Positions 268-31,064 of a stretch of 64,000 nt of DNA are shown in pieces. Position numbers and translations under genes: made by a program. Position 1 is the stretch's first letter. Each line of letters begins with the position of its first letter. Source of the DNA: Aeromicrobium piscarium (GTDB taxonomy: Bacteria; Actinomycetota; Actinomycetes; Propionibacteriales; Nocardioidaceae); NCBI RefSeq assembly GCF_007421815.1, contig NZ_VLNT01000015.1:1-64000 (forward strand), in the 5' to 3' direction. The notes beneath the pieces were generated by a model. The model had not been told where the DNA came from, did no database searches, and saw nothing but the letters and a program-made list of their open reading frames with translations.

Positions 268-273
268 GGCCAC

Positions 274-7640: not shown

Positions 7641-7768
7641 AGCAGCAGCGATCGTCATGGCTCAGCTGACGAAGGAGACCCCAGCGGGAGGGTCGAGCGG
7701 TCCGAACTCTTGGCGAAGCTAGGTAACTGTCGAACCCTGTTATGCCCGCTACCTCAGGTGGACTGGAG

Positions 7769-8152: not shown

Positions 8153-8170
8153 ATCTCGATGATATTCGAT
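8151..8170. promoter_or_regulatory. putative ArsR operator at the arsR start
   Basis: ATATC (8151-8155) and GATAT (8161-8165) form a dyad around TCGAT, overlapping the arsR start codon and continuing to TTCGAT. It includes CGATGATA (8157-8164), also present in the perfect dyad before the CDF gene at 15,898. The position fits autorepression by steric block. Confidence 0.45.
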
Positions 8171-8272
8171 GCAAGCGCTTGATTCCAGGGGTGCATGCGT
8201 TACTCTCGACCAAGTCCATTGCGATCGCGGAGTCTTGACGCCGCGTTTGTTCTTGACCGATACGGAGACTGG

Positions 8273-9082: not shown

Positions 9083-9178
9083 CGGCCAGTTCTTGTCTAC
9101 ACCGGGCACCCTTACAGATTCGTCTGAGTCACGGACCCTGATATTGATGTATCGAGCGGTTTCTGTGGGTTTTGGGTC

Positions 9179-10108: not shown

Positions 10109-11691
10109 GTCTGTGTCTCCTTGAGGTTGTTGGATGTGGGCAAGGCTTGTTGCAGGTCGCGCAGGAACGCATCGAGATCGATCGGAGTCTCGTCACGGGG
10201 CACGCGATCGAGCACGCCGACGTTGACCGAGGTGAGCGTCCTGCCAGCCTCATCGGTACTGGTGGTCGCTGTGATCCAGGTGCGTCGTGGGCGGACCATC
10301 AATGAGGCCATGAGTCCGATCAGTCCGACGCTCACGCCGACGAGGGGCAGCGATTTCGCTGGAACATCGGCGATCTGGAATCGGGCAAACCGCTGCAGAT
10401 CAACGAACTCGATGCTGCCGCCGCCAGGCAGGTCCTGCACCTGGCCGGGGCTCAAGCTGATGTTGAACGGCTCTCCGTCATCGCCGAGCACCTCGGTCAT
10501 CTGCTCTTTCTGAAGTGTGTACACCGACTGCGGGGTGCCATCGTCAAGCCCGAGATCGCCGCTCCACATCCGCAGCCCGACCACCGGATTCACGGCACCG
10601 GGATACACGGTCCTGGTGGGCGCGTCGTCACCAGTCGAAACAGCGGTTGGCATGAAGAATCCCTGGAAGCCCAACTGCTCGGGTGCAGCGTCGGGCACCT
10701 TGACGACGCCTTCGGACAGGTAGGTGCCATCCTGCGGCAAGAAGATCACGGCATCGTCGAACACGACCTCACCGTTGGCGTCGGTGACACGAATAACCGG
10801 GGCATAGCCCTGGCCGATAAGGAAGACATCGCCGCCGTCCAGTGATAACGGGTTGTTGACAACGATCTCGTAGTTCTGTGGCTCGTCGCCGGGCCGCTCC
10901 GTGTAGGTGACGTCGGCCTGGAACAGCCGTGGTGCTCCCATCTGAGGACCACTGGAGTGGAACTCCGCGATCATGCGATCGACGGTCAACCCAAACGGTG
11001 GAAGGTTGTCGGGATCATAGAGTGGGCCAGAGTTGAACTCGTCGTACTGGCTGAGCGTGTTGGAGAAACCATCGCCTTCGGTGACCATGACAGCCCCGCG
11101 GTAACTCCACAACGCACCGATGGCTACGCCGACCAGGACGACCAGGATGCTGCAGTGGAAGACCAAGTTGCCCAGCTCACGCAGGTAGCCCTTCTCGGCT
11201 CGCAGCTCGGTGCCGTTCCCGGTCTGGACGACATCGATGCGTGCGCGTCCGAGCATCTGTCGTCCGGCAGACACGACCTCATCGACCGAGGCCGTGGTCG
11301 TGAAAGAGCCCGATCCGGGCAGACGGGCGAAGTTGCGCGGCGCTCGCGGGGGACGAGCACGTAGGGCTTTGGCGTAGACGCCGATGCGCGGCACGATACA
11401 GCCGACAAGCGAGAGCATGAGCAACAGGTAGATGGCACTGAACCACGGCGAGGAGTACACCGAGAACATGCCGATGGCGTCGAGGACTGGCGCGAGAGTC
11501 GGATGATCTTGAAAGAAAGCCTGGACGGCCCGTGCGTCGACTCCGCGTTGCGGAACCAATGAGCCGGGCACCGCCGCCACGGCGAGCAGAAGCAGCAAGA
11601 ACAACGCCGTGCGCATGGAGGTCAGCTGCCGCCACATCCACCGAACGAACTGCCGCGGTGTCAGCTCCGAGGCCTGCGTCGAGGGATTCAT
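10105..11691 (-). CDS. resB: cytochrome c biogenesis protein ResB
   Basis: 528 residues. Three membrane helices lie near the N-terminus (about 27-50, 80-105, 180-200), then a large extracytoplasmic domain of about 230 residues, then a last helix near 450. This is the standard ResB layout; full length, no frameshift. It is the partner of CcsB in heme delivery and attachment to c-type cytochromes. ATG at 11,691. It sits 191 bases downstream of the DUF5134-like gene on the same strand, so the three may form one transcript. Confidence 0.93.
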   Translation of the reverse strand: MNPSTQASELTPRQFVRWMWRQLTSMRTALFLLLLLAVAAVPGSLVPQRGVDARAVQAFFQDHPTLAPVLDAIGMFSVYSSPWFSAIYLLLMLSLVGCIVPRIGVYAKALRARPPRAPRNFARLPGSGSFTTTASVDEVVSAGRQMLGRARIDVVQTGNGTELRAEKGYLRELGNLVFHCSILVVLVGVAIGALWSYRGAVMVTEGDGFSNTLSQYDEFNSGPLYDPDNLPPFGLTVDRMIAEFHSSGPQMGAPRLFQADVTYTERPGDEPQNYEIVVNNPLSLDGGDVFLIGQGYAPVIRVTDANGEVVFDDAVIFLPQDGTYLSEGVVKVPDAAPEQLGFQGFFMPTAVSTGDDAPTRTVYPGAVNPVVGLRMWSGDLGLDDGTPQSVYTLQKEQMTEVLGDDGEPFNISLSPGQVQDLPGGGSIEFVDLQRFARFQIADVPAKSLPLVGVSVGLIGLMASLMVRPRRTWITATTSTDEAGRTLTSVNVGVLDRVPRDETPIDLDAFLRDLQQALPTSNNLKETQT

Positions 11692-11882
11692 GGCGAGTCT
11701 TTCGATCGAGATATGCCGTGGTGACCACGTGCGGCCGGCCGGTGCGTGGTGAGGGGATAGTTCCGGTGTGGCATGGGAGCTCCGTAGTGGTTGAAGAAAG
11801 GTAGAGGGGAACCTGCGGTCCGTGACTCAACAGTGAGTCGTCGGGGAACCCGAGGATCGCCTGCCAAGTACCGGCCCCAGCC

Positions 11883-12476
11883 TCACATCGCGAGTAACAT
11901 CGCGATCATGCCGCCGGCCATGATTGCGTGACACAGCGAATGCAGCCGATGCCCGCGGGCCACCAGCGTCCGGTAGAGCCACCAAAGTGCTCCCGCCGCG
12001 CACAATGCGACGACCACCCCGTTCATGGCATCGACCCATGCGGTCGCCGCGGTCTGAAGAGTGTCATGGTCCTGACCGCCTGCCATGTTTGAGGAGTGTT
12101 CCCCGGTGCCGTTAGTCATCAGTAGCGGCATCGCCGCGAGCATCCAGATCATCGCGATGTTGAGGACGACGTGCCCGGCGGTATCAATCCAGCTGGTCGT
12201 TACGCGAGAGTCGAGAAAAGCCCACACCAGGGCGAAAGCGAAGACCATGAATACGAGGATCTGTAGCCAGCTACCGGCGCTTGGGATGGTCGACCAGATC
12301 ATCAGAACCATCGCCACACTCATCACCGCGTGGTTGATGTCCACTAGTTCTTCACTCGTGCGAGTGTTCCCGGCTGCAGCGGTCTGCCTCCGAATGGCGA
12401 CATAGTTGCCTACGCACACTGATGCGGTGAAAAGGAACGCGACGGTCAAGATGATGTTCCACGGCGGGGAGAGCAT
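11883..12476 (-). CDS. DUF5134-like integral membrane protein
   Basis: 197 residues, six predicted membrane helices, short loops, and conserved-looking His residues in or near helices (DINHAVMSVAMVLMIW, AGHVVLNIAMIWM, LHSLCHAIMAGGM). A Met/His-rich pattern and a His/Asn/Asp loop (GTGEHSSNMAGGQDHD) suggest metal or heme contact. The family occurs in actinobacterial copper and respiratory gene clusters; its function is not established to my knowledge. ATG 12,476 sits just inside a dyad shared with the divergent ctaD promoter region. Confidence 0.7.
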   Translation of the reverse strand: MLSPPWNIILTVAFLFTASVCVGNYVAIRRQTAAAGNTRTSEELVDINHAVMSVAMVLMIWSTIPSAGSWLQILVFMVFAFALVWAFLDSRVTTSWIDTAGHVVLNIAMIWMLAAMPLLMTNGTGEHSSNMAGGQDHDTLQTAATAWVDAMNGVVVALCAAGALWWLYRTLVARGHRLHSLCHAIMAGGMIAMLLAM

Positions 12477-12485
12477 CCGCTCATG

Positions 12486-12508
12486 TTACTCTACGGATTG
12501 TAGAATAA
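12486..12508. promoter_or_regulatory. dyad operator between DUF5134-like gene and ctaD
   Basis: TTACTCTAC (12,486-12,494) and GTAGAATAA (12,500-12,508) form 9-bp arms with one mismatch around GGATT. The CTAC...GTAG core resembles dyads used by BlaI/CopY/MecI-type repressors. It lies 10 bases before the DUF5134-like start and 88 bases before ctaD, so one repressor could control both directions. No BlaI/CopY-type gene is in the window. Confidence 0.5.
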
Positions 12509-12595
12509 GATCGTCTGGGCAGGGCACCGATCGTCGCCTTTTGATCTGGCTGCGGTGTTGCTTCATGTCAGTAGGTTCCACGAAGGAGAGGGCTG

Positions 12596-14362
12596 ATGGC
12601 CACCACAGCGGCGTTCGAGGAGGCTAAGCAGTCCGAGCTCCCGGCGTCGGTGCGGCGTGAGCGCAACATGGGTCAGAAGGTCGTGACGCTTCTGACGACG
12701 ACCGATCACAAGTTGATCGGCAAGATGTATCTCGCGACGACGTTCGTCTTTTTCATCATCGGCGGCGTGATGGCGTTGATCATGCGCGCCGAGCTTGCCC
12801 GCCCGGGTACCCAGGTGGTCGGCGACGAGACGTTCAACCAGCTGTTCACGATGCACGGCACCGTGATGCTGTTGATGTTCGCGACGCCGCTGTTCTTCGG
12901 TTTCGCGAACCTGGTGGTGCCGATCATGATCGGCGCGCCGGACGTCGCCTTCCCGCGGTTGAACATGTTCAGTTTCTGGATGTTCCTGTTCGGCAGCCTG
13001 ATCGCGTTGTCCGGGTTCATCGTGCCCGGTGGCGCCGCGAGCTTCGGCTGGTTCGCCTATATGCCGTTGAGCGATTCGATCAACTCTCCGGGCATGGGCG
13101 GCGACCTGTGGGTGATGGGCCTGTATATGTCGGGTCTGGGCACGATCCTCGGTGGCGTCAACTTCATCACCACCATCTTCACGATGCGGGCACCGGGCAT
13201 GACTATGTTCCGGATGCCGATCATGGTGTGGAACACCCTGGTCACCAGCCTGCTGGTGATCATCGTCTTCCCCGTGCTGGGGGCGGCCCTGTTGGCGATT
13301 GCCGCGGATCGCATGCTCGGTGCGCATGTTTTCGATGCCGCGACGGGTGGACCGATTCTGTACCAGCATCTGTTCTGGTTCTTCGGCCATCCCGAGGTGT
13401 ACATCATCGCGCTGCCGTTCTTCGGCATCATCACCGAGGTGCTGTCGGTGTTCAGCCGCAAGCCGGTGTTCGGTTACGTCGGCCTGGTGTTCGCCACGTT
13501 GGCGATCGCGGCGCTGTCGGTGGCGGTCTGGGCGCACCACATGTTCGTCACCGGCGCGGTCAACTTGACTTTCTTCTCGTTCATGACCTTGTTGATCGGT
13601 GTTCCGACAGGTGTGAAGTTCTTCAACTGGATCGGCACGATGTGGGGCGGTTCCATCTCCCTGCACACGCCGATGATGTTCGCCCTGGGCTTCCTGACGA
13701 CCTTCTTGTTCGGCGGCCTGACCGGCATCGTGCTGGCGTCTCCGCCCCTGGATTTCCAGCTGTCAGATAGCTATTTCGTGGTGGCGCACTTCCATTATGT
13801 GGTGTTCGGCACCGTGGTGTTCGCGATGTTCGCCGGTTACTACTACTGGTGGCCGAAGATCACCGGCAAGATGCTCGACGAGAAGCTGGGCAAGATCCAC
13901 TTCTGGCTGCTGTTCATCGGTTTCCATCTAACGTTCCTGGTGCAGCACTGGCTCGGTGCCGCCGGTATGCCGCGTCGTTACGCCGATTATGGACCGAATG
14001 ACGGTTTCACCACGCTCAACGGAATCTCCACGATCGGGGCGTTTCTGTTGGGGGCGTCGATGATCCCGTTCATGTACAACGTGTGGAAGTCCCGTAAGGC
14101 GCCGATGGTCGGCCTCGATGATCCGTGGGGTTGGGGTCGCACGCTGGAGTGGGCGACGTCCTCCCCGCCGCCGCGGCACAACTTCGTCCGGCTGCCGCGG
14201 ATCCGTTCCGAGAGCCCGGCCTTCGACCTGCATCACCCAGAGGTGGCGTCGGTGGAGCTGCTGGACAACCCCGGAGAACAGGAAGGAGTCGCCGATGCTC
14301 CCGACGTGGATAGACGTGAGGAGGCATTGGGTGACGCGCACGGTGAAAGACCTGATGAGTAG
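12596..14362 (+). CDS. ctaD: aa3-type cytochrome c oxidase subunit I
   Basis: 588 residues, twelve membrane helices. All cofactor ligands are present: H87 (TMHGT) and H400 for heme a, H398 for heme a3 (HFHYV), H265 with Y269 (HPEVY), and H314/H315 for CuB. The gene therefore looks functional. The start has GAAGGAG upstream. The C-terminal 50 residues are hydrophilic and acidic. Subunits II, III and IV and bc1 genes are not adjacent, so this is probably a second, mobile copy that joins the host's other subunits. Neighbouring ccsB-resB supports a role in building or rescuing the respiratory chain under metal stress. Confidence 0.93.
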
Positions 14363-14494
14363 CCAAGGAGAAGGGAATCTCGAAGATCCTGTCTGATCGA
14401 CCTTGAACGGCCCGGTGCGACGTGAGATCGCATCTGTGGTGCAGGTTCGATTGTGTTCCGCTTGCCGGAATCTTCCCCAGATCGAGGTAACCAG

Positions 14495-15796
14495 ATGATG
14501 CATGCAACCGTTCGTAAGACAATGTTCGCGGCAGTATTGACAGTCGGCTTGATGGCCGGGCTCGCTGCACCGCCCGCAATAGCTGACTCTAAGGACGACA
14601 TCCGGCGTCAGCAGGGCGAGAACGAGCAGCGCCGGTCACGGGCGCAACAGGACCTCCAGCACTCCACCGCACGGTTTCAGGAAGCGTCCTCCGCTCTGAG
14701 TGCGGCGACTAGTCAGCTAGAAAAAGCTCAAGATGTTCTTGGACAGACTCGCGGCGAACTCGCCGTGGCGCAGTCCCGTGATGCTGAGTTGCGTGAGGAG
14801 CTGACTCGTGCCGAGGCCGATCTAAAGTCCGCTGAAAAACGGGTCGATCTCGCTGCGAGAGAGCTCGACGACTCCGAGTCCGTCGTCGAGCAGTTCGCGG
14901 TCGATAGCGTGATGGAGGGCGATCGGGGCCTGCGAGCTTTCAGCGGATTGCTTCAAGGTGAGGCTCCGACGACGTTCTCTGAACGGGTCCAGATGAACGA
15001 ATCCATTGGCGATGCGCAGATCGCGACCATGCAGGAACTCGATGCGGCTCGGGTGATGGTTGAACTGGAACGTCAACGAGTCGAGGAACTGCGTGATCAG
15101 GTCGCGTCACAGAAGCGCGAGGCCGAAGCGAACGTGGTGCGAATGCAAGAACTTACGACCCAGGCTGAAACCCAAGCCGCAGAGGTCAGCCAGTTGGTAG
15201 AGACGCGGGAGGTCGCACAGACGGAGGCGAATGCCGCCAAAGCACAGGACGAACAGGCGTTGGCCGAACTCGATGCGGAGCGAGCCGCCTTGGAGCAGCG
15301 GATGCGGGCCATAGTTGATGAGGAGTTGCGCAAGGAGCGTGAGCGGCGGGCTCGTGAGGGCGGCGGTGGTGGCCCCGCCCCCGGCGGCGGGGGAGGTGGT
15401 GGCAGCGTGCTGGGTTACCCGGTCAACGGTCCGATCACCTCGCCGTACGGAATGCGCCGGCATCCCGTCACTGGCGTGTACAAGCTCCACGACGGCACTG
15501 ACTTTGGCGCTGGCTGCGGCGTTCCGGTCCGTGCCTCCGCTTCGGGCACCATCGTCGAGCAGTATTACAACTCTGCCTACGGCAACAGAGTCATCATCAA
15601 CCACGGCGTCATCGGTGGTTCCAACCTCATGACCACTTACAACCACATGTCCGGCTTCGCCGCCAGCCCGGGTCAATACGTCAACCGTGGTGACGTGATC
15701 GGCTACGTCGGCACTACGGGGCTCTCCACCGGCTGCCATATGCACTTGATGGTTCTACAGAACGGTGCGACAACGAACCCGATGTCCTGGCTCTGA
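14495..15796 (+). CDS. secreted M23 peptidase with N-terminal coiled coil (EnvC/NlpD-like)
   Basis: 433 residues: signal peptide (about 1-30, ending PPAIA-DS), a long coiled coil (about 33-290, repeated Gln/Glu/Ala/Arg heptads), a glycine-rich linker (about 300-318), and a C-terminal M23 domain with HDGTD and HMHLMV Zn ligands and a disulfide-like GCGVP / TGCHM cysteine pair. ATG 14,495 has GAGGT seven bases upstream; the frame is open from 14,453. A wall hydrolase or hydrolase activator acting outside the membrane. It is the second M23 gene bracketing the cytochrome genes. Confidence 0.88.
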   Translation: MMHATVRKTMFAAVLTVGLMAGLAAPPAIADSKDDIRRQQGENEQRRSRAQQDLQHSTARFQEASSALSAATSQLEKAQDVLGQTRGELAVAQSRDAELREELTRAEADLKSAEKRVDLAARELDDSESVVEQFAVDSVMEGDRGLRAFSGLLQGEAPTTFSERVQMNESIGDAQIATMQELDAARVMVELERQRVEELRDQVASQKREAEANVVRMQELTTQAETQAAEVSQLVETREVAQTEANAAKAQDEQALAELDAERAALEQRMRAIVDEELRKERERRAREGGGGGPAPGGGGGGGSVLGYPVNGPITSPYGMRRHPVTGVYKLHDGTDFGAGCGVPVRASASGTIVEQYYNSAYGNRVIINHGVIGGSNLMTTYNHMSGFAASPGQYVNRGDVIGYVGTTGLSTGCHMHLMVLQNGATTNPMSWL

Positions 15797-15877
15797 GAAA
15801 CGCTGTCTGCTGGCGCGTGCGCTTGACGCAAGTCGCGCAAGTTCCTAGCTGCTGGGTTTGCTTAGTGTGACCTATGA

Positions 15878-15909
15878 GCGCTATCATCGTAAAATAGCGA
15901 TGATAGCGC
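15878..15909. promoter_or_regulatory. 12-bp perfect inverted repeat before the CDF exporter
   Basis: GCGCTATCATCG (15,878-15,889) and CGATGATAGCGC (15,898-15,909) are separated by TAAAATAG, 61 bases before the exporter start. The arrangement is typical of ArsR/SmtB operators, and the arm shares CGATGATA with the arsR promoter dyad. No T-run follows, so a terminator is less likely. Confidence 0.65.
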
Positions 15910-15969
15910 CAGTAGTTCGCTCTTGGAGCTGGCTAGTGAAGAATGTTCGGAGAGAACGGAGCTCCCCTG

Positions 15970-16914
15970 ATGGGTGCAGGACACGACCACGGCCCGGCGG
16001 TTGATGATACCGCCGGGGTTCCCGGTGACTATCGCAAAAAGCTGTGGATCGCCTTTGGCATCACGGCCACGATCGTTGTCGCCCAAGCTGTCGGCTCGGT
16101 GATCACGGGAAGCCTCGCGCTGCTGACCGACACCGCGCACGCGATCACCGACGCTTCAGGGCTGCTCGTGGCCCTGATCGCCGCGACTCTGATGCTGAAG
16201 CCAACTAGTTCCAGGCGTACCTGGGGCTTCCGGCGTATCGAAGTCATCGCTGCCCTCGGCCAGGCGACCCTGCTGCTCGTCGTCGGGTTCTACACTGCGA
16301 TCGAAGGCATCCGGCGGCTGTTCGAACCACCGGACGTTCCCTCCACCGAGTTGCTCATTTTCGGGATCGTCGGTCTCACCGCCAATGTCATTGCGATCGC
16401 CATCCTGTCCTCCAGCAGGGGCGCGAACTTCAATATGCGTGCCGCATTCCTGGAGGTTCTCAACGACGCACTAGGTTCCCTCGGCGTCATCGTCGCCGCG
16501 ATCATGATCGCCACAACTGGGTTCCAGCGAGCAGACGCCATCGCCGGCCTGTTCATCGCCGCGCTCATCGTGCCGCGTGCGTTCAAGCTGATGCGGGAGA
16601 CCACCAGCGTGCTGATGGAGTTCACACCCAAGGGTCTCGATCTGGACGAGGTTCGTGCTCACATCCTGGAGCTCGATCACGTCAAGGACGTCCACGACCT
16701 GCACGCCTCCACTGTGGCGACCGGCCTGCCCACCATCACTGCTCACGTGGTCGTCGAGGACGAGTGCTTCACCGACGGACACGCCGCCGAGGTTCTCCAT
16801 GCCGTGAAGCAGTGCGTCGCCGAGCACTTCGAAGTGTCCGTAAGCCACTCGACCTTCCAGGTCGAGACCGAGCACATCAGCGACGACGAACCCGACTCCG
16901 TCAAGCATCCCTGA
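15970..16914 (+). CDS. cation diffusion facilitator (CzcD-like metal exporter)
   Basis: 314 residues, six membrane helices plus a cytoplasmic C-terminal domain. Helix II carries the HAITD (HxxxD) half of the transport site. Helix V reads EVLND where Zn/Cd CzcD/ZitB proteins have HxxxD, so one His ligand is replaced by Glu. An N-terminal HDHG motif may bind metal. ATG 15,970 has CGGAG eight bases upstream; ATG 15,943 is less well placed. Probably proton-coupled efflux of Zn(II) or another divalent ion. Regulation by the ArsR-type protein is inferred from the shared operator motif. Confidence 0.9.
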   Translation: MGAGHDHGPAVDDTAGVPGDYRKKLWIAFGITATIVVAQAVGSVITGSLALLTDTAHAITDASGLLVALIAATLMLKPTSSRRTWGFRRIEVIAALGQATLLLVVGFYTAIEGIRRLFEPPDVPSTELLIFGIVGLTANVIAIAILSSSRGANFNMRAAFLEVLNDALGSLGVIVAAIMIATTGFQRADAIAGLFIAALIVPRAFKLMRETTSVLMEFTPKGLDLDEVRAHILELDHVKDVHDLHASTVATGLPTITAHVVVEDECFTDGHAAEVLHAVKQCVAEHFEVSVSHSTFQVETEHISDDEPDSVKHP

Positions 16915-17092
16915 CCATTCAGGAACACCGAGACCGGTACGGACTATGAGCCGGTCGTGATGAACAGGGCGACGTGCTCAGGTCCTCGCCGCCTGTGGAA
17001 TTGGACGCGGCGGCGGGCGAACCGATGTCGCTCCCGCCACGTTTGTCGAGCGGGTCTCAGTAGACCTTGTTGCGACGATTGTCGAAATCGCC

Positions 17093-18091
17093 TCATAGGT
17101 CGCGGTGTTCGATTGGACGATGGGCTTTGAGAGTGCGGCGCTCGGGGGTGCCATATCCGCAGGGACGTGGTGGTTGTCGGTTGGCTGTTGGGGTCGCGCC
17201 TAGTTCGGTGATGTCGTTCGCGTTGGTCACCGCCCTTGCTGTTCCGTCGCATAGCAGTGCGTTGGTGCCGCTGCTCATGATCCCGAGCACGGAGCCTGGC
17301 ACGGCGCCGACGCCTCGCCCTAGCTCGTGGGCTCTGGCGGCAACGGCCAGTGCGCTTGAACGTGGTCCTGATTCCACGACCGTCGTCGCCGCCGACAGCG
17401 CGGCCTCGATCCGAGCACGAGCGAGGACTCGTGTCCTGGTGGGTGGCGAACCGGGTGGCGTCTCGCTGACCACTAGCCCTACATCGGCGATGCGCTCCAG
17501 CAAACCGGCGTGCGGTCGATCGCCGGTTGAGGCTATCACCGCGATTGTGTGTCCCGCCTCCATCAGTGCCGCACGATGTGCCGCGGCATCGATGCCGAAC
17601 CCTCCTCCGGACACAACGATTTTCTCATCACGTGCCAGATCTGCTGCGATACCGCCCGCCACTTCTACCCCGTAAGCGGTCCCATCGCGGGAGCCGGTGA
17701 TGGTGAACCGGTTGTCTAACGAACCTGACAGTAGTGATGCGTGGCCTTTGACCCACAGCAAGTACGGTCTCTCGACACCGAGGTCGTCTAACGAGGTCGG
17801 AAAGTCGCGATCGCCGGGAATCAGCGTGCCGAATCCTTCTCGCTCGGCGCGTGCCGTCGTCTCCGCGACCTGTTGAGTGTCGACCTGTCGTGGTAGGTGC
17901 GATCGCCAGAGTCGCGCCTCGACCTCGCCCATCCCTGGGACCGTGCCTTCTTCGGTTAGCGCACGGACCGTCTCCACCGCGCCGGCATGCGCGAGCACGC
18001 GACCCGTCAAGATGTCACCCGGTTCGACGATGTTCGCCAGGACCATGCGTGCGGACCGTTCATCTGTCGCCAGCGCGCTCAACTCGTTCAT
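17093..18091 (-). CDS. DprA/Smf-like DNA-processing protein
   Basis: 332 residues. A Rossmann-like DprA domain is visible: ITGSRDGTAYG and VVSGGGFGIDAAAHRAAL match the GSR and SGxAxGID.AH motifs, ending with PGSVLGIMSSGTNALLCDGTA. DprA loads RecA on incoming single-stranded DNA. Chromosomal dprA normally follows comM/yifB; this copy stands alone at the island edge, which suits a role in handling transferred or phage DNA. ATG 18,091 has AAGGGGG upstream, and that ribosome site overlaps a perfect 20-bp palindrome. No C-terminal winged helix is obvious. Confidence 0.88.
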   Translation of the reverse strand: MNELSALATDERSARMVLANIVEPGDILTGRVLAHAGAVETVRALTEEGTVPGMGEVEARLWRSHLPRQVDTQQVAETTARAEREGFGTLIPGDRDFPTSLDDLGVERPYLLWVKGHASLLSGSLDNRFTITGSRDGTAYGVEVAGGIAADLARDEKIVVSGGGFGIDAAAHRAALMEAGHTIAVIASTGDRPHAGLLERIADVGLVVSETPPGSPPTRTRVLARARIEAALSAATTVVESGPRSSALAVAARAHELGRGVGAVPGSVLGIMSSGTNALLCDGTARAVTNANDITELGATPTANRQPPRPCGYGTPERRTLKAHRPIEHRDL

Positions 18092-18100
18092 CACGGACCC

Positions 18101-18120
18101 CCTTGTCGGTACCGACAAGG
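18101..18120. promoter_or_regulatory. perfect 20-bp palindrome upstream of dprA-like gene
   Basis: CCTTGTCGGTACCGACAAGG is fully self-complementary. It lies ten bases from the start codon, and its last bases form part of the AAGGGGG ribosome site. It is either a dimeric repressor operator or a hairpin hiding the ribosome site. Confidence 0.65.
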
Positions 18121-18343
18121 TGAACGAGGCGGTCCTCTGTTAGCGGGGGTGGTGCCGAAGCCGTACCGCCCGCATGCGTTTGCCGGCTGCTCGGCGGTCC
18201 CTTTTTCGGTCCCGTTTTGCGGGGAGAGTCCCGAGAATAACCACGTAGCTACACGTAGCTGTTGTATAGTAGTCGTGTCTCAAATTCCCGCAATGACGCA
18301 GGATTTTAGACCTCAGCACGGGGTAAACCGTGAACTCGAAGCC
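18121..18343. other. AT-richer gap between dprA-like gene and att scar
   Basis: No gene seen. It contains a tandem direct repeat of CACGTAGCT (18,242-18,250 and 18,252-18,260) followed by TGTATAGTAG, a -10-like sequence at 18,265-18,270. Tandem repeats near an attachment site can be arm-type recombinase sites. Otherwise nothing recognised. Confidence 0.35.
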
Positions 18344-18382
18344 ATTCAGTTGTTCTAGGTTCGAGTCCTAGTACCCCAGCCA
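18344..18382 (+). other. tRNA-Gln 3' fragment, probable attR scar
   Basis: The sequence reads as the 3' end of an actinobacterial tRNA-Gln: variable region, T-arm stem CTAGG / CCTAG around TTCGAGT (18,355-18,371), acceptor 3' strand TACCCCA, discriminator G and encoded CCA (18,380-18,382). The preceding bases cannot fold into the D-arm and anticodon arm of the same tRNA, so the gene is not complete here. Such 3' fragments mark the far end of elements that integrate into tRNA genes and leave the intact tRNA at the other end, here presumably left of the window. Confidence 0.72.
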
Positions 18383-18490
18383 CAAGCCTTGGTATTGCGT
18401 GGTTGGTCACCGACTTCTGTTCGAAGCATGCATCCTGCCCGACGCCGCGGCGATATCTGGGTGCCCGTGCAGCAGGGTTAGTGTGAACGC

Positions 18491-18841
18491 ATGACCGTGC
18501 GGCGCATCGTTCCTGATATCGAGAGCGCCGATGTGCCGGCGTCCGTCGAGTTCTACTCCGGCCTGCTGGGTATGGAGCCCGTCATGGACCATGGCTGGAT
18601 CGTGACCTTGGCCGATCCTGCCGATCCGGCTCGGCAGCTGAGCGTCGCATCGCACGATGCCTCCGCTCCGGTCGTGCCCGATGTGTCGATCGAGGTCGAC
18701 GATGTCGACGACGCCTATGCCACGGCCCGGCGACTGGGAGCCGAGATCGTGCATCCGCTCACCGAGGAGCCGTGGGGAGTGCGCCGGTTCTTCGTGCGCG
18801 ATCCCGATGGGTACGTGGTGAACGTCCTCGGTCACGGCTAG
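18491..18841 (+). CDS. VOC-superfamily protein (glyoxalase/bleomycin-resistance fold)
   Basis: 116 residues, a single VOC module pair with the typical opening VRRIVPDIESADVPASVEFY and closing RRFFVRDPDGYVVNVLGH (FxDPxGy motif). Substrate unknown; VOC proteins include lyases, dioxygenases and drug-binding proteins. It is the first gene right of the tRNA-Gln scar, ends directly at the convergent molybdenum hydroxylase gene, and is transcribed alone. Confidence 0.85.
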   Translation: MTVRRIVPDIESADVPASVEFYSGLLGMEPVMDHGWIVTLADPADPARQLSVASHDASAPVVPDVSIEVDDVDDAYATARRLGAEIVHPLTEEPWGVRRFFVRDPDGYVVNVLGHG

Positions 18842-20902
18842 CTAGTCGCCCAGGAGGACCGCTGGTGTGAGGGGAAGGTGGCGCAGCCGGAGGCCCGTCG
18901 CGTGGTAGACGGCATTCGCGATGGCGGCCGCCGATCCCACGATGCCGATCTCCCCGGCGCCGCGTGAGCCCATCGGGGTGGCGAGTTCGTCGCTGTCATC
19001 GAGCCAGCTCGCGTCCATGTCCTCGATATCGGCATGCACCGGGACGTGATAGCTCGCCAGATCCTGTGTCACCACATGACCGAACCTCGGATCCCGCACA
19101 CTCCTCTCGTGCAGGGCCATGGACACCCCCATCACCATCCCGCCGAGGAGCTGCGAGCGGACCGTGCGGGGGTTGATGACCCGGCCGATCGAGAACACCC
19201 CGCGCATCCGCGGCACCCGCACCTCGCCGGTGCCCGGGTGCACGCGCACCTCGACGAAATGAGCCCCGAAGGAGGCGGCGGTGTATCCCTCGGCCAGTGG
19301 GTCCTCCGAGACACCGCCGGTCGTCTGGGCCCCGGCGTCGGGATCCTCGCCGTGCTGTCGGCGGAACATCTCGGCGGCCGCGACGATCGCCGAACCCCAC
19401 GAGCTTGTCCCGGACGACCCGCCCGCGACCGTCGCCGTCGGCAGCGACGAGTCGCCGATCTCCATCGTCACCCGATCCGGTGAGATCCCGAGCGCATCGG
19501 CGGAGATCAACGTCAACGTGGTCCAGGCTCCCGTGCCGATATCGGCCGCGCCGGTGCGCACGGTGTAGCGGCCGGCGCCGTTGTGGCGGATCGTCGCCTT
19601 GGTCCCCGGCATCATCACGTGCGGGTAGGTCGCGCTGGCCATGCCGGTGCCCACCAGCCATTCACCGTCACGCCGTACCCCGGGGCGAGGATCCCGGTCC
19701 TGCCAGCCGAACTGGCGCGCGCCCTCGTGCAGGCAGTCGACCAGCCGCCTGGAGGTCCACCGATTGCCGGTTGCGGGGTCGCGGGGCGGGTCGTTGCGGA
19801 GGCGCAGCTCGACGGGATCGACGCCGGCGGCCACCGCCAGCTCGTCCATCGCCACCTCCAGCGCGAACATCCCCGGGGCCTCACCTGGTGCGCGCATCCA
19901 GTGCGGCGGCGGTACATCGAGCGGAACCAGGTGATGGACGAGGCGACGGGAGTCCGCGGCGTACATGCTCGCCGAGATCGACGACGCGTTCTCCGAGAAG
20001 CTCCCGACCGGCGACACCTGTGAGAAGGACTCGTGATCGATCGCCGTCAGCGTACCGTCGGCACGGGCGCCGAGGCGTAGATGCTGCTGAGTGGGGGAGC
20101 GGTAGCCCACGAACACGAAGCCCTGCTGACGGGTGATCGCATATTTCACGGACCGGCCGGGCACGGCCATGGCACCCAGCGCGGCCAGCACATCGTGGGC
20201 GTGAGGTGCCGCCTTGGAGCCGAAACCGCCGCCGACATGTGGCGAGACCACCCGTAACTGCTGCGGCTCCAGGCCGAGCAGTGGCGCGAGCGTGTCGACG
20301 ACGCTGTGCGGGCCCTGGGTGGCGGTCGTGAGCGTCAGGTGCTGCTCCTCGGCGTGCCAGCGGGCGACCGAGGTATGCGGCTCCATCGGCGTATTGTGCT
20401 CCTCCGGTGTGGAGTACTGCTGGTCGATCACGATCTCCGCGTCCGACAGTGCCTGATCGACATCATCGCCGATGGTCTGCGGATCGTCCTCGGGATAACG
20501 GTCCGGATGGTCGGTGCGAAGGACGGTGTCGTGCTCCTCCTCGGCATACCCGACCTCGACGAGCGACTGGGCGTATCGCGCGATCTCGGGAGTGGTCGCG
20601 ATGACGGCACCGATGATCTGGCCGCGGAACTTCACCTCGGGACCTTGCAGGAGTGTCAGCTCGGGGTCCGAGATGTCCGCGAGGCGGGGAGCATTCCAGG
20701 GGGACAGGACGGCCAGCACACCGTCCACCTCCTCGGCGGCTGAGGCGTGGAAGGTGTCGATCTTCCCCCGGGTGATCGTGGCCTGCACGGGATAGAGGTA
20801 CACGGGGTCGGTGAACGGATGCTCGTAGGCGTACCGCGCCGTCCCGGTGACCTTCGCGATGCCATCGACCCGCGCGGTCGAGGTGCCGATCGCGCCGGTC
20901 AT
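18842..20902 (-). CDS. molybdenum hydroxylase large subunit (PaoC/XdhA-like)
   Basis: 686 residues, the Mo-cofactor subunit of a xanthine-oxidase-family enzyme. It starts with the a/b hammerhead domain (ARVDGIAKVTGTARYAYE) and then Mo-binding domains (GGGFGSKAAPHAHD; TPEEHNTPMEPHTSVA). E651 in RGAGEIGIVG is the expected catalytic glutamate. It resembles the E. coli periplasmic aldehyde oxidoreductase PaoC rather than CO dehydrogenase (no active-site VAYRCSFR-type loop seen). Start overlaps the FAD-subunit stop (ATGA). Likely oxidises an aldehyde or N-heterocycle; substrate unknown. Confidence 0.9.
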   Translation of the reverse strand: MTGAIGTSTARVDGIAKVTGTARYAYEHPFTDPVYLYPVQATITRGKIDTFHASAAEEVDGVLAVLSPWNAPRLADISDPELTLLQGPEVKFRGQIIGAVIATTPEIARYAQSLVEVGYAEEEHDTVLRTDHPDRYPEDDPQTIGDDVDQALSDAEIVIDQQYSTPEEHNTPMEPHTSVARWHAEEQHLTLTTATQGPHSVVDTLAPLLGLEPQQLRVVSPHVGGGFGSKAAPHAHDVLAALGAMAVPGRSVKYAITRQQGFVFVGYRSPTQQHLRLGARADGTLTAIDHESFSQVSPVGSFSENASSISASMYAADSRRLVHHLVPLDVPPPHWMRAPGEAPGMFALEVAMDELAVAAGVDPVELRLRNDPPRDPATGNRWTSRRLVDCLHEGARQFGWQDRDPRPGVRRDGEWLVGTGMASATYPHVMMPGTKATIRHNGAGRYTVRTGAADIGTGAWTTLTLISADALGISPDRVTMEIGDSSLPTATVAGGSSGTSSWGSAIVAAAEMFRRQHGEDPDAGAQTTGGVSEDPLAEGYTAASFGAHFVEVRVHPGTGEVRVPRMRGVFSIGRVINPRTVRSQLLGGMVMGVSMALHERSVRDPRFGHVVTQDLASYHVPVHADIEDMDASWLDDSDELATPMGSRGAGEIGIVGSAAAIANAVYHATGLRLRHLPLTPAVLLGD

Positions 20903-21888
20903 GCGTCCTCCCCGGTGAGCTCCTCGAGAGCCGCGATCATCATGGTGCGCGCCATCGGCACTTTGAAGGCATTGCCCTCCAAGGGACGGGCGTGGTCGAG
21001 TTCGGCCTCAGCGGCCGCCGTGAAGGTCTCGGTGGTGGCGGGCGCGCCACGCAACACCTCTTCGGCGCGATGGGCGCGCCAGGGCTTGTGTGCGACGCCA
21101 CCGAGCGCCAGTCGCGCGCGGGCGATGACACCGTCCTCGACCACCGTCTCCGCCGCCAGCGAGACGAGAGCGAAGGCGAAGGACGAGCGCTCGCGCGCCT
21201 TGCGATAGGTCGACCGGGCGCCCGGCGCCGGCGCGGGGATGCGGATGGCGGTGATGAGGTGACCCGGATCGAGGACCGTGTCCTGCTCGGGGGCATCGCC
21301 GGGCAGGCGGTGCAGTTCCTCGACTGTAACGCTTCCCGGACCGTCCGGGCCGAGGAACAGGACTTCGGCGTCGAGGGCCGCGAGCGCCACGGCCATATCG
21401 GACGGGTGGACGGCGACGCAATGCTCCGAGGCGCCGAGGATGGCGTGCTGCTCGGTGTGGCCGCCGATGGCGGAGCAACCGCTGCCGGGGACCCGCTTGT
21501 TGCACGGGGTGGTCACGTCCTGGAAGTACACACAGCGCGTGCGTTGGAGGAGATTGCCGCCCGTCGTGGCCAGGTTGCGCAGCTGCCCCGATGCTCCCGA
21601 CAACAAGGCCCGGGAGAGGACCGGATGACGGCTCCGCACGAGCGGATGGGCGGCGAGGTCGGCATTGCGGACATTCGCGCCGATGACGAGGGCGCCGTCG
21701 GCCTCCTCCTCGATCGTCGTGAGGGGGAGGTGGGAGATGTCGACCAGGAGCTCTGGCGAGGTGATCCCGAGCTTGAGGTGGTCGACGAGATTGGTCCCAC
21801 CGGCGAGGAAGGTCGCGCCAGGGCGTGCCGCGACGCTCGTGACCGCCCCGGCCGCGTCGGTGGCTCGTTCGTAGTCGAAGGGATTCAC
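20899..21888 (-). CDS. molybdenum hydroxylase FAD subunit (PaoB-like, extra Fe-S)
   Basis: 329 residues. FAD-binding motifs are GGTNLVDHLK and TTGGNLLQR. The segment RTRCVYFQD...CNKRVPGSGCSA adds clustered cysteines at the position where PaoB carries a [4Fe-4S] cluster, placing the enzyme in the PaoABC subgroup. GTG at 21,888 overlaps the stop of the [2Fe-2S] subunit; the open frame continues upstream to 22,104 but in non-protein-like sequence. Middle gene of the three-gene operon, with the same order as paoABC. Confidence 0.9.
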   Translation of the reverse strand: MNPFDYERATDAAGAVTSVAARPGATFLAGGTNLVDHLKLGITSPELLVDISHLPLTTIEEEADGALVIGANVRNADLAAHPLVRSRHPVLSRALLSGASGQLRNLATTGGNLLQRTRCVYFQDVTTPCNKRVPGSGCSAIGGHTEQHAILGASEHCVAVHPSDMAVALAALDAEVLFLGPDGPGSVTVEELHRLPGDAPEQDTVLDPGHLITAIRIPAPAPGARSTYRKARERSSFAFALVSLAAETVVEDGVIARARLALGGVAHKPWRAHRAEEVLRGAPATTETFTAAAEAELDHARPLEGNAFKVPMARTMMIAALEELTGEDA

Positions 21889-22400
21889 GCGGTACCCTCC
21901 TCGGCCGCCTGCTTGACCGCGGCGACGATATTGACGTAGGCCCCGCAACGGCACAGATTGCCGCTCAGCCGTTCCCGGATCTCCGCGTCGGTCAGCGACG
22001 GTGCCTCCGCGAGATCGTCGGTGACGAAGCTGGGAGAGCCGTCCGCGGCCTCGGCGAGCATGCCGATGGCGGAGCAGATCTGCCCGGGAGTGCAGTAGCC
22101 GCATTGGAAGGCGTCCTGGTCGATGAAGGCCTGCTGCATCGGGTGAAGGCCGTCGTCACCGCTCAGACCGCTCGCGGTCACGATGCTCGCGCCGTCGTGG
22201 GCCACGGCGAGCGAGAGGCACGTAGTCACGCGGCGATCGTCCTCCAGCACGGTGCAGGACCCGCATTGCCCGTGATCACAGCCCTTCTTGGGTGCTGTGG
22301 ACCCGAGGTGATCGCGCAAGGCATCGAGGAGCGTGGTGCGGTTGTCCACGACGATCGCGTGCTCCTCACCATCGACGGTCAAGGCGAGTTTGGACTCCAT
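21885..22400 (-). CDS. molybdenum hydroxylase [2Fe-2S] subunit (PaoA-like)
   Basis: 171 residues with two [2Fe-2S] sites: the plant-type ferredoxin motif CDHGQCGSC with a distal Cys, and the C-terminal CGYCTPGQ...CRCGAY helical-domain motif. It passes electrons from Mo to FAD. ATG 22,400 was chosen with GAAGG upstream. Unlike E. coli PaoA there is no twin-arginine signal, so the complex is probably cytoplasmic. No PaoD/XdhC-type maturation gene is adjacent. Its promoter faces the yhfZ-like gene across 134 bases, so the two operons may be co-regulated. Confidence 0.92.
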   Translation of the reverse strand: MESKLALTVDGEEHAIVVDNRTTLLDALRDHLGSTAPKKGCDHGQCGSCTVLEDDRRVTTCLSLAVAHDGASIVTASGLSGDDGLHPMQQAFIDQDAFQCGYCTPGQICSAIGMLAEAADGSPSFVTDDLAEAPSLTDAEIRERLSGNLCRCGAYVNIVAAVKQAAEEGTA

Positions 22401-22506
22401 GGGACACCTTCGGGGCTCGTCGGATCGCTGTCGGGGGTACCTGGCCATTGAATCAACGGAGCCGCGGTGATGCCTCCCGAGAGACCGGCCGTCGGGCTAT
22501 AGCTAA

Positions 22507-22524
22507 TATCCAGAATATTGGATA
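22507..22524. promoter_or_regulatory. dyad at the yhfZ-like promoter
   Basis: TATCCA (22,507-22,512) and TGGATA (22,519-22,524) flank GAATAT, embedded in an AT-rich island (CTATAGCTAATATCC) that looks like a -10 region. It ends ten bases before the regulator start. It suits autoregulation by the GntR-type YhfZ-like protein, possibly also acting on the divergent hydroxylase operon. Confidence 0.5.
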
Positions 22525-22534
22525 GATTGTCGCC

Positions 22535-23449
22535 ATGACCCGGATGCACGTGCTCATGTCGAAGGCCGGTGCCGTGGCGCATCGCCTCGCGCTCGAGCTG
22601 TCGGCCGCCTCGGCGGGGGATCGGATGCCGACGGTGCAGGACCTCAGCGAACGCCATCAGGTCGGCAAGGGCACGGTGCAGGCCGCCCTGGCATTGCTGG
22701 AGGAAGCGGGCGCCGTCGAGATCCGGCCACGCGGCAAGCTCGGCACCTTCGTCACGAGCATCGACCATCGGCTGCTGTGGGAGCTGGCCGGCGGGTCCAG
22801 CGTGTCCGTTGCGATGCCGTTGCCGTACTCGCGCCGCTACGAGGGTCTGGCCACCGGCCTGCACGCCGCCTTCATCGAGGTCGGGGTGCCCCTCACGCTG
22901 ATGTTCGTCCGAGGAGCCGCCGACCGTGCCGCCGCGCTGCATCGCGAGCGCGCCGACTTCGCCGTCATGTCGAGGCTCGCCGCCGAGGGCGACCCCGAGC
23001 TGGAGATCATCCGCGACTTCGGACCCCATACCTATGTCGGCGCCCACGGTCTCGTGCTCGCGGAGGGTCGCGATCCCGAGGATCCCGACCTGCGTGTCGC
23101 CGTCGACCCGTCTTCCACCGACCAGACGGCGCTCACCATGGCGCGCTTCCCCCAGCTGCCCGATGACCGGCTCGTCGAGGTCTCCTACAACCAGCTCGGC
23201 CGCTACTTCGCCGACGGGTTGGTCGACGCGACCGTATGGAATCTCGACGAGATCGACGCCCACATCACCGTCCCCGTCACCACGCATCCGCTGGACGGCG
23301 TCGACACCGCCGCGACCACCTCGGCCGTGATCGCGGCACGCCGCGACGCCGGCTCCACCCCCACGCCCGTCACCCGAGCCCTCGGTGCCGACCTCATCAT
23401 GCGGTCCGCCGAGGAGGTTGTGGCCGGCCGGCGCATCCCGACCTACTGA
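22535..23449 (+). CDS. yhfZ: YhfZ-like GntR-type transcriptional regulator
   Basis: 304 residues. An N-terminal winged helix (MPTVQDLSERHQVGKGTVQAALALLEEAGAVEI) is fused to a periplasmic-binding-protein-like effector domain (LPYSRRYEGLATGLHAAFIEVGVPLTLMFVRG), the layout of E. coli YhfZ. The effector domain suggests sensing of a small metabolite. First gene of a nine-gene run with overlaps or gaps of at most about 15 bases to 31,061. A dyad just upstream suggests autoregulation. Confidence 0.85.
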   Translation: MTRMHVLMSKAGAVAHRLALELSAASAGDRMPTVQDLSERHQVGKGTVQAALALLEEAGAVEIRPRGKLGTFVTSIDHRLLWELAGGSSVSVAMPLPYSRRYEGLATGLHAAFIEVGVPLTLMFVRGAADRAAALHRERADFAVMSRLAAEGDPELEIIRDFGPHTYVGAHGLVLAEGRDPEDPDLRVAVDPSSTDQTALTMARFPQLPDDRLVEVSYNQLGRYFADGLVDATVWNLDEIDAHITVPVTTHPLDGVDTAATTSAVIAARRDAGSTPTPVTRALGADLIMRSAEEVVAGRRIPTY

Positions 23450-23464
23450 GACCAGGAGACCCTG

Positions 23465-23845
23465 ATGGACGACACGCTGCGTCAGCGGCTGGCCCTCTAC
23501 GAGGCGATGGACGACACCCCCGACGGCGTCGTCGACTTCGTCCGCGAGGAGCTGGAACGACTCGAACCGCAGTTCGACGTCACCGAAGAGTCGGCAGGGG
23601 CGCTCACCGCACATCTCATCGCCGCGCTCGGCCGGATGATCCGCCGCGATCCGGACATCGACCCACCGGGTGACACCGTCTACCGCGAGGTCGTCACGCA
23701 CTTCCCCTCCGCCGTCGCCGATGCCGCCGCGGTCTCGACCCGCGCGGAAGAACGACTGGGCGTCCCCTTGTCGTCGATCGAACAGCAGTACCTCAGTCTC
23801 CACCTGGGCACCCTCGCCCTGACCTCTACCAAGGAGCAGTCATGA
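23465..23845 (+). CDS. yhfY: YhfY-like PRD-domain protein
   Basis: 126 residues, all-helical, resembling a single PTS-regulation domain. Histidines (TAHLIAALGRM, SLHLGTLAL) are placed as in PRDs, where phosphorylation by PTS proteins tunes regulators. It lacks a DNA-binding part and may act with the YhfZ-like protein or the transporter. Good ribosome site (AGGAG). The stop overlaps the next ATG by four bases. Assignment rests on context plus fold-like pattern. Confidence 0.7.
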   Translation: MDDTLRQRLALYEAMDDTPDGVVDFVREELERLEPQFDVTEESAGALTAHLIAALGRMIRRDPDIDPPGDTVYREVVTHFPSAVADAAAVSTRAEERLGVPLSSIEQQYLSLHLGTLALTSTKEQS

Positions 23846-24201
23846 AGATCATCGCCGGAGGAGTCGCCAAGTCGGAGGTCGCGGACGCGCTGCGACCACT
23901 GCTGGGCGACGGCGACACCGTCACGATCGGCACCGATATGGATGCGGCCGTCCAGCTGCAGTCCGGTGCGGTCGACTTCTACCTCGGCACGTGCCACACC
24001 GGCGCCGGGGCGAGTCTGGGCGTACTGATCGGCTTCCTCGGATCGCAGCGCACCCACACCTTCGGGCGCTCGCTCCCTTCGCAGGAGCAGATCGACGCCG
24101 CCGTCGAGGCGGGCAATGTCGCCTTCGGTTTCTCGATCGACCAGGTGCAGGACATCGTGCCGATGCTGTGGAGGGCCCTCGAGGCCCGTCAGGGGGCCTG
24201 A
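23842..24201 (+). CDS. yhfU: YhfU-like DUF2620 protein
   Basis: 119 residues, alpha/beta, starting MKIIAGGVAKSEVADALR with a glycine-rich loop GTCHTGAGASLGV that could bind a small ligand or cofactor. It matches the DUF2620 family, which is found only in yhf-like clusters next to YhfT. Size and fold recall PTS IIB-like domains, so it may be the soluble partner of the YhfT permease; that is inference. Three bases separate it from yhfT. Confidence 0.78.
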   Translation: MKIIAGGVAKSEVADALRPLLGDGDTVTIGTDMDAAVQLQSGAVDFYLGTCHTGAGASLGVLIGFLGSQRTHTFGRSLPSQEQIDAAVEAGNVAFGFSIDQVQDIVPMLWRALEARQGA

Positions 24202-24204
24202 GCC

Positions 24205-25593
24205 ATGCTGCTCGCCGCCGAGACGTCGACCGTCTCCTTCGAGCCCTGGCAGGGCGTCCTCGTCATCGTGCTGTCGGCCTTCGCGGCCCTCATCGCCAAT
24301 GCCGCGCTGGCCGTCTTCAACGACGGCGCCCGGCCGTTCCTGCTCGACTACATCCGCGGCACCTCCACACGCCTGGCGACCGCGACGATCGTGTTCGGAC
24401 TGTCGGCCGGATTCATCTTCGGCCTGGGCGCGCCGATGGCGCTCTCGACCGGCGTGCTCAACCCGTGGCTGGTCTTCCTGCCCGTCGAGATCCTGGGCCT
24501 CCTGGCCCCGTGGCGCTGGCTCGCCGCGGTCGCCGGTGGCGCGTGGGGAGCCGTGTGCGTCTTCGGACTGAACGCCGCGAACTCGGCCGCCACCGCTTTG
24601 CCGATCGACTTCATCACCTCGCTGCAACAGATCTCGACGCCGATCCTGTGGCTCTTCACGATCTTCCCGGTGCTGGCCATCACGCGGCAGTTCGGCCGTC
24701 TCAAGGGCGTTCTCACGCTCGTCGTCGAGATCGCCGCCATCCTGCTCTCCATGAACCTGTGGCCCGATCTGTTCGCCGGTTCCATCGCCATGGCGGTCGG
24801 CGTCATCATGCTGCTCGTGTTCGCGGTGACCCGGGACCGCACCACTCGGCGCCGGGAGCTGGCCGAGCTCGCCGGCAAGAGCGCCGAGGAGCAGGAGGCG
24901 TACGAGACACAGCGCGCCGCGACCGCCGAGGTCTCGAACCAGCTCTTCGGCCCCAACGCGACCCGTCTGCGCAAGAACATCGTGTGGTTCGCGATCCTCG
25001 GTGGCCTGGTGTGCATGCTGGCGGCGAGCGGGATCTTCGGCGGGGGCGAGGCCACCAGCTTCCTCGTCGCGGAGGGATCGTACGCCGAGGCGGCCCAGGT
25101 CGACTTCCTGCGCGCCTTCGGCTTCGTGCCGCTCATCGCCACGACGGCCCTCGCCTCGGGTGCCTACGCGATGGCGGGCTTCACCTTCGTGTACCCGGTG
25201 GGCTATCTCACGCACATGTTCGTCGACTCGTGGCCGCTGGCGCTCGCGGTGGCCTTCGTGCTCGGCGCGCTCATCATGACCGTCGAGGTCTTCCTCCTCA
25301 GCGCACTGGGCCGCTGGCTGCAGCACTGGCCGAGCGTGCGCGATGCCGCTGATCACATCCGCAACGCGATCACCGAGTCTCTCTCGCTCGCGATCCTCGT
25401 CGGCTCGCTCATGGCGGGCCTGGCGATGGGCGGAGGCCTGGGCATCGCCCTCGTCGGCGGTCTCTACCTGCTCAACGAGTCGATGGGACGCCCCGTGGTG
25501 CGGATGGCCGCCGGACCGTCCGCCGTGATCGTCAGCGGTATCGCACTGAATCTGCTGTACCTGGTCGGACTCGTGGCGCCGGTGGCCTCCTGA
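24205..25593 (+). CDS. yhfT: YhfT-like inner-membrane transporter
   Basis: 462 residues with about ten to twelve membrane helices, starting with a hydrophobic N-terminus (VLVIVLSAFAALIANAALAVF). A hydrophilic cytoplasmic loop near residues 210-250 (RRRELAELAGKSAEEQEAYE) splits it into two halves, as in E. coli YhfT. Presumed uptake system of the operon; substrate unknown. The stop shares bases with the next start (TGATG), so translation is coupled. Confidence 0.85.
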   Translation: MLLAAETSTVSFEPWQGVLVIVLSAFAALIANAALAVFNDGARPFLLDYIRGTSTRLATATIVFGLSAGFIFGLGAPMALSTGVLNPWLVFLPVEILGLLAPWRWLAAVAGGAWGAVCVFGLNAANSAATALPIDFITSLQQISTPILWLFTIFPVLAITRQFGRLKGVLTLVVEIAAILLSMNLWPDLFAGSIAMAVGVIMLLVFAVTRDRTTRRRELAELAGKSAEEQEAYETQRAATAEVSNQLFGPNATRLRKNIVWFAILGGLVCMLAASGIFGGGEATSFLVAEGSYAEAAQVDFLRAFGFVPLIATTALASGAYAMAGFTFVYPVGYLTHMFVDSWPLALAVAFVLGALIMTVEVFLLSALGRWLQHWPSVRDAADHIRNAITESLSLAILVGSLMAGLAMGGGLGIALVGGLYLLNESMGRPVVRMAAGPSAVIVSGIALNLLYLVGLVAPVAS

Positions 25594-26516
25594 TGCCGAT
25601 CCGCACTGCCACCGGGCGGAGACTCGAGGCCGGGGATGTCTCCGGCTCGGTGCTGGCCCACGAGCACCTGCACCTCGATCTGCGTACAGAGAGCGACGCC
25701 GAGGCGACGCTGCACGATACCGGCGCGGTGACCGCCGAACTCGCCGATGCCCGGCGCGACCACGATCTCGGGTTGGTCATCGACCTGACCTGCCGGGGTA
25801 TGGGCGGCGACGCTCGCGTGGTCCGGCGGATCAGCGAGGACTCCGGCGTCGAGGTCGTCGTGGCGACGGGCTGGTACTACGAGCGATTCCACCCTCGTGG
25901 CGAGCCGGGCACGTCCGTCGAGGAAGCGACCGAGCTGCTGCTCGCGGACATCCTCGGCGGTCTCGATGGCGGCATCCTGCCCGGGGTTCTCGGTGAGATC
26001 GGCAGTCATGGGGAGCGGGCGAGCGACGCGGAGCGCACCGGGTTGCGCGCCTCGGCGCGAGCCGCGGTGGAGAGCGGACTCTCGCTGGGCACCCACGCGC
26101 ACCTGGGACAAGGGGCGCGCGAGCAGCTCGACCTGCTGACCGCTGAAGGACTCTCGCCGCACCGCGTGTCGCTGGGACATCAGGACCTGTGCGACGACGG
26201 CCGCCAGCACGTCGACCTCGCGCGGGCGGGGGCTTACATCGCCTTCGACACCGTCGGCAAGACCGGCTATCAGAGCGACGATCGGCGCGCCGAGCTGCTC
26301 TTGGATCTGCTGGAGGCCGGTTTCGAGCGTCACCTCCTGCTCAGCAACGACATCTCCCGTGACACCTATCTGCGCGATCGCCAGGGCCAGGGCTACGGAC
26401 ACGTCCTCGGCCCGTTCCGCCGGATGCTCGCGGACAGGGGAGTGGGCGCCGACGTACTCGACCTGCTCTACCGCGCCAACGCACTGCGGTGGCTGACCGG
26501 AAGCGAGGAACCATGA
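25593..26516 (+). CDS. php: phosphotriesterase-homology protein (Php/YhfV-like hydrolase)
   Basis: 307-residue TIM-barrel amidohydrolase. Binuclear metal ligands are visible: H23 and H25 (AHEHLHLDL), E135 (GEIG, the Glu used by E. coli PHP in place of the carbamylated Lys of phosphotriesterase), H168 (GTHAH), H196 (SLGHQD) and D253 (LSNDISRD). The likely substrate is a lactone or phosphorylated lactone rather than an organophosphate; within this operon it could open a cyclic intermediate. ATG overlaps the yhfT stop. Confidence 0.87.
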   Translation: MPIRTATGRRLEAGDVSGSVLAHEHLHLDLRTESDAEATLHDTGAVTAELADARRDHDLGLVIDLTCRGMGGDARVVRRISEDSGVEVVVATGWYYERFHPRGEPGTSVEEATELLLADILGGLDGGILPGVLGEIGSHGERASDAERTGLRASARAAVESGLSLGTHAHLGQGAREQLDLLTAEGLSPHRVSLGHQDLCDDGRQHVDLARAGAYIAFDTVGKTGYQSDDRRAELLLDLLEAGFERHLLLSNDISRDTYLRDRQGQGYGHVLGPFRRMLADRGVGADVLDLLYRANALRWLTGSEEP

Positions 26517-31061: not shown

Positions 31062-31064
31062 GCC

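Follow-up and report, generated by a model that had tools for sequence, protein, structure and literature searches.

The window, a 64,000-nt stretch of DNA, is the start of contig C7 of the Aeromicrobium piscarium assembly. The following features lie along it, given by position and strand.

1..127, +, end of a multicopy IS-like repeat with ~8 near-identical copies in the genome; the contig breaks there
1..18344, no strand, right part of the island, the left part of which is C46:144456-169862
4080..7640, +, MOBF (TrwC-type) relaxase-helicase, 1186 aa (Pfam TrwC, 5e-90; NCBIfam MobF, above cut-off)
7769..8152, -, ArsR-family regulator
8273..9082, +, M23 peptidase
9179..10108, -, cytochrome c biogenesis protein CcsB
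10105..11637, -, ResB-like cytochrome c biogenesis protein
12596..14362, +, cytochrome oxidase subunit I, cargo (Pfam COX1, 4e-159)
15970..16914, +, cation diffusion facilitator (CDF), cargo (97% identity to the sister-island copy)
17093..18091, -, DprA-like protein, last gene before attR (81% identity, same position in the sister island)
18202..18214, +, candidate integrase arm site TTTTTCGGTCCCG, found in the same orientation inside attL (C46:144528-144540)
18345..18382, +, attR core, a 38-nt exact copy of the tRNA-Gln(CTG) 3' end
18383..37900, no strand, second accessory segment of 19.5 kb between attR and the tRNA-Glu leader, with a chromosome-like G+C of 69.7%
37941..38016, +, tRNA-Glu(CTC), which stands 24-67 bp behind tRNA-Gln in element-free relatives
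38232..38307, +, second tRNA-Glu(CTC)
41623..43637, +, leuC and leuD

The fragment at 18345-18382 (TTCAGTTGTTCTAGGTTCGAGTCCTAGTACCCCAGCCA) covers the 3' strand of the anticodon stem, the variable loop, the T arm, the 3' acceptor strand and CCA. It is a direct repeat of the 3' end of an intact tRNA-Gln(CTG) elsewhere in the genome (C46:144418-144455) with 38 of 38 nucleotides identical, and the match runs on to 18386 with one mismatch beyond the exact repeat. A genome-wide search gave E = 5.7e-14 for the intact gene and E = 0.18 for the next match. When up to three mismatches are allowed, the window has a single occurrence of the 25-nt core GGTTCGAGTCCTAGTACCCCAGCCA, and 0.00 are expected from shuffled sequence. 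ARAGORN and Rfam detected no complete tRNA at the fragment; only the two tRNA-Glu genes, at 37941 and 38232, were called. A sequence-only reading of the window had described an orphan tRNA-Gln 3' end made up of T arm, acceptor strand and CCA without the D and anticodon arms. The orphan end is real and the named parts are all present. The fragment also contains TCAGT, the anticodon stem's 3' strand, and thus starts at about tRNA position 38/39 and not in the variable loop. The G+C content at the fragment steps from 62-64% to 69%, with averages of 62.4% for 1-18344 and 69.7% for 18383-37900.

The intact tRNA-Gln(CTG) (C46:144381-144455) is located on another contig of the same genome, downstream of gltX (named by sequence and position), and constitutes attL. 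The genome contains only one other tRNA-Gln gene, TTG (C46:28095-28173), which was ruled out as the source of the fragment because its 3' end is different and unrelated. The region behind the intact gene encodes the following.

C46:144645-144833, small HTH/Xis-like protein, 62 aa, between tRNA-Gln and the integrase
C46:144826-146034, tyrosine integrase, 402 aa, starting 371 bp behind the intact tRNA-Gln
C46:149950-151734, VirD4-like coupling protein (T4SS-DNA_transf and TraG-D_C)
C46:152446-153939, VirB4-like ATPase (NCBIfam VirB4-like, 1e-17, below the equivalog cut-off; PDB 4ag5, VirB4-like, 1e-9)
C46:155918-157390, SCO6880-family part, split from the VirB4-like ATPase

The integrase retains the invariant R227/H344/R347/H369/Y379 residues, and the HTH protein beside it is probably an excisionase. 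An intact tRNA-Gln with the same 3' end and an adjacent tyrosine integrase had been anticipated from the fragment, and this arrangement was found on C46. The candidate arm site is a 13-nt direct repeat inside both island ends, compared to a longest direct match of 11 nt in 100 shuffles.

The C46 part of the island also encodes an SCO6881-family protein, an M23 peptidase and, next to an ArsR-type regulator gene, a heavy-metal P-type ATPase; T4SS-type genes continue up to the contig end at 169862. The search criteria used by Ghinet et al. (2011; PMC3218068) for T4SS-based actinobacterial ICEs were int, a MOBF/TrwC relaxase, VirD4 and VirB4, and they yielded 17 putative ICEs. The predicted MOBF relaxase, VirD4-like and VirB4-like genes place the element among the T4SS-type actinobacterial ICEs under these criteria. 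It resembles the published elements in its tyrosine integrase, MOBF relaxase, VirD4-like coupling protein and VirB4-like ATPase, and differs from them in its target, tRNA-Gln(CTG), its host, Aeromicrobium, and its cargo, which combines a metal P-type ATPase and a CDF with ResB/CcsB and oxidase subunit I. The same study gives tRNA 3' ends as the usual att sites of related AICEs and reports tandem AICE pairs in one tRNA gene.

The uninterrupted site is seen in all 18 sampled Aeromicrobium relatives, where gltX, tRNA-Gln, a 24-67 bp spacer and tRNA-Glu follow one another. Beyond tRNA-Glu in these genomes lie Ada/Ogt-like genes, an IclR-like gene, leuC and leuD, where the 20 kb fetched reached that far. 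The comparison with relatives lacking the island, also proposed in the sequence-only reading, returned an undivided tRNA-Gln/tRNA-Glu pair and no fragment; the sole relative with the fragment is Aeromicrobium sp. PE09-221, which has the island as well. CCA is encoded in both tRNA-Gln copies of A. piscarium, intact gene and fragment, and is not encoded in any of the 18 element-free relatives.

The two ends of the island are on different contigs, with gltX and tRNA-Gln on C46 and tRNA-Glu and leuCD on C7. C7 is tied to C46 because leuC and leuD share a stretch with gltX and tRNA-Gln in element-free relatives. C7 starts inside the multicopy IS-like repeat, which explains the assembly break. A direct overlap of the C46 end with the C7 start was sought and none was found; we infer the connection from gltX-leuCD synteny, the att repeat and the shared sister island. 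The island measures at least 43.8 kb, consisting of C46:144456-169862 and C7:1-18344 with an IS-bounded gap between them.

The closest relative, PE09-221 (G031), carries the same island at the same site with the same fragment, and both ends are present. Its contig NZ_MIJB01000032.1 contains attL. The same left part follows tRNA-Gln, and the cation efflux (97%) and DprA-like (81%) genes are the last two before the fragment. Nearly 24 bp are common to both ends of the PE09-221 island at places matching the candidate arm sites. The island part of the window matches three PE09-221 contigs (C72, C76 and C43; relaxase and cargo) at 82-86% DNA identity. Site, gene order and right-end genes are as in A. 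piscarium, with 74-86% DNA identity over shared blocks, whereas the integrase is 72% identical, the segments on both sides of the fragment differ and the island is spread over several contigs. The same modules are thus split in both genomes, over C46 and C7 by the IS-like repeat in A. piscarium. Many transfer proteins of the sister islands are 80-95% identical, compared to 72% for the integrase, hinting that the integration module may have been exchanged in mosaic fashion. The CcsB, ResB and cytochrome oxidase subunit I genes (9179-14362) ride on the island, and PE09-221 has extra sets at C39 and C49 besides its island copy.

Accessory DNA does not end at the fragment. The segment at 18383-37900 contains xanthine-dehydrogenase-like genes, a YhfT/YhfU-like cluster, and phosphotriesterase-like, SIS-domain, malic-enzyme-like and other genes. 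It is absent from the tRNA-Gln/tRNA-Glu site in 18 of 18 relatives and is shared at this place by PE09-221 alone, where it likewise fills the distance between fragment and tRNA-Glu and is split between two contigs. These data support the earlier suggestion that the 18.4-37.9 kb stretch is itself accessory. The claim that the fragment marks the right edge of an integrated element holds for the ICE, and accessory DNA goes on to 37.9 kb. Since the 18.4-37.9 kb stretch is also missing here in the 18 relatives, the fragment bounds the ICE on the right but not the accessory DNA of the tRNA-Gln site as a whole. No second tRNA-Gln 3' copy was detected before 37941 (best local score 17, inside the shuffle range), and no integrase was found among the called genes of the segment (Pfam on ten of them), nor any PF00589 match on C7. 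The middle of the segment (~22.5-31.1 kb) occurs at an unrelated locus in two element-free relatives, G036 and G022, at 73-74% identity, and the segment is therefore composite. The interval from gltX to leuCD is variable and accumulates accessory DNA.

Positions 23842-31061 hold a YhfT/YhfU (DUF2620)/phosphotriesterase/SIS gene set of the E. coli yhf type. The set is rare in the genus, with YhfT in 4 of 49 genomes, and its loci differ between species.

Homologues of the integrase were collected at nine loci of the genome collection, one of them in PE09-221 and eight in Leucobacter, Gulosibacter and Cryobacterium. The eight outside Aeromicrobium are 55-64% identical. A tRNA-Gln or its 3' fragment lies ~370-400 bp upstream of the integrase at seven of these eight: intact tRNA-Gln(CTG) at four, about 375 bp from the integrase, and the 3' fragment instead at three loci of Leucobacter and Cryobacterium (L106, L107 and L111). 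Neither was found upstream of the homologue at the eighth locus, L113. At L106 an intact tRNA-Gln is present 2.6 kb further upstream of the fragment, the pattern typical of stacked elements. The sequences at L106, L107 and L111 suggest possible stacked elements at tRNA-Gln. The fragments at the homologue loci all start within 1-2 bases of the same tRNA position, indicating that the same core is used. One integrase family across Leucobacter, Gulosibacter and Cryobacterium is thereby linked to one target, tRNA-Gln CTG.

We are highly confident that 18345-18382 is the attR of a T4SS-type ICE inserted by tyrosine-integrase recombination in the 3' half of tRNA-Gln(CTG), behind gltX. Because the element brings its own version of the tRNA 3' end, the gene on the integrase side (attL, C46) is whole, and the old 38-nt 3' end is displaced to the far side at attR. 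The integrase (C46:144826-146034) and the small HTH protein would integrate and excise the element, whereas transfer of the excised circle would fall to the MOBF relaxase, VirD4 and the VirB4-like ATPase. The ancestral right flank is missing directly after attR, which calls for a second event, and the 19.5 kb that follow attR would be accessory DNA of separate and earlier origin at this site. The simplest order places the segment first and the ICE second.

The other readings differ in how they relate the fragment to the DNA on either side of it. One takes the fragment for a tRNA relic, degenerate or arisen by chance, or for a small tRNA-like structure, in either case unconnected with the element; in its favour, GGGGTA, 24 nt before the repeat, could form pairs with TACCCC within it. 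The sister species PE09-221 has not conserved these pairing bases, which also rules out the fragment as a mini-tRNA, and a relic leaves the exact 38-nt match, the position of the integrase and the empty sites unexplained; we give this reading practically no credence. Entry of 1-37.9 kb together with the C46 part as one island, with the fragment as an internal relic, would account for the absence of the whole stretch from the tRNA-Gln/tRNA-Glu spacer in 18 relatives and for the presence of both parts in PE09-221. It is very improbable in view of the lack of an att repeat at 37.9 kb, the sharp G+C step at the fragment, and the arm sites and last gene that stand next to the fragment in both species.

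A further possibility extends the preferred reading of an ICE with its attR at 18345-18382. The 18.4-37.9 kb stretch would itself be an integrative element that entered this tRNA-Gln earlier. The fragment would then have a double role, as attR for the ICE and as what was once the attL of the earlier element, the right scar of which was lost. The tRNA-Gln 3' end and the tRNA-Glu leader border the segment exactly, with homology to G036 resuming no more than 14 nt from the tRNA-Gln end in that genome, and three of the eight integrases outside Aeromicrobium are behind a 3' tRNA-Gln fragment, as stacked elements predict. Both tRNA-Gln copies carry the CCA that the 18 relatives lack, which adds little because only two bases are involved, and the extra CA could be chance. 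Against these points, there is no tRNA-Gln 3' fragment before 37941 beyond the shuffle range and no integrase among the called genes, the G+C content is chromosomal, and two element-free relatives carry the 22.5-31.1 kb part at an unrelated locus. We therefore hold this extension only tentatively, at rather less than an even chance. Its full form is a layered array founded by an older xanthine-dehydrogenase/Yhf-type island, which took tRNA-Gln first and gave it a 3' end with CCA encoded. That island would have lost its right scar and reached fixation before the ICE was added in front of it, leaving one 38-nt fragment to serve both. This history is conceivable, and we lean somewhat against it.

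Insertion at a tRNA 3' end is an ordinary and well known mechanism, and the arrangement seen here is the textbook one. Under the Islander definition (PMC4383910), the endpoints of tDNA islands are marked by a regenerated target gene and a displaced 3' fragment. The present island is alike in being defined by a regenerated gene at one end and a displaced fragment at the other, and differs in having its ends on separate contigs. A single-contig search would miss the island for this reason. A literature search found no report on tRNA-Gln ICEs in actinobacteria or on Aeromicrobium ICEs. An Aeromicrobium ICE divided between two contigs in the assembly now has exact ends.

Other accessory DNA was noted in the genus and in this genome. 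Inserts of ~6-16 kb lie between tRNA-Glu and the Ada-like gene in G033, G008, G026, G029, G027 and G019, and a relaxase, 38% identical, is found behind tRNA-Glu in relative G023. Outside the window, C12:366657-409732 of the same genome encodes a relaxase 56% identical to that of the window and an integrase 38% identical to the C46 enzyme, ~420 bp behind tRNA-Met; this region is a possible second ICE. Between the two tRNA-Glu genes, at 38088-38184, is an ~80-nt palindromic repeat with a DNA fold z = -8.6. It has dozens of diverged matches in this genome and others of the genus, and looks like a REP-type dispersed palindrome.
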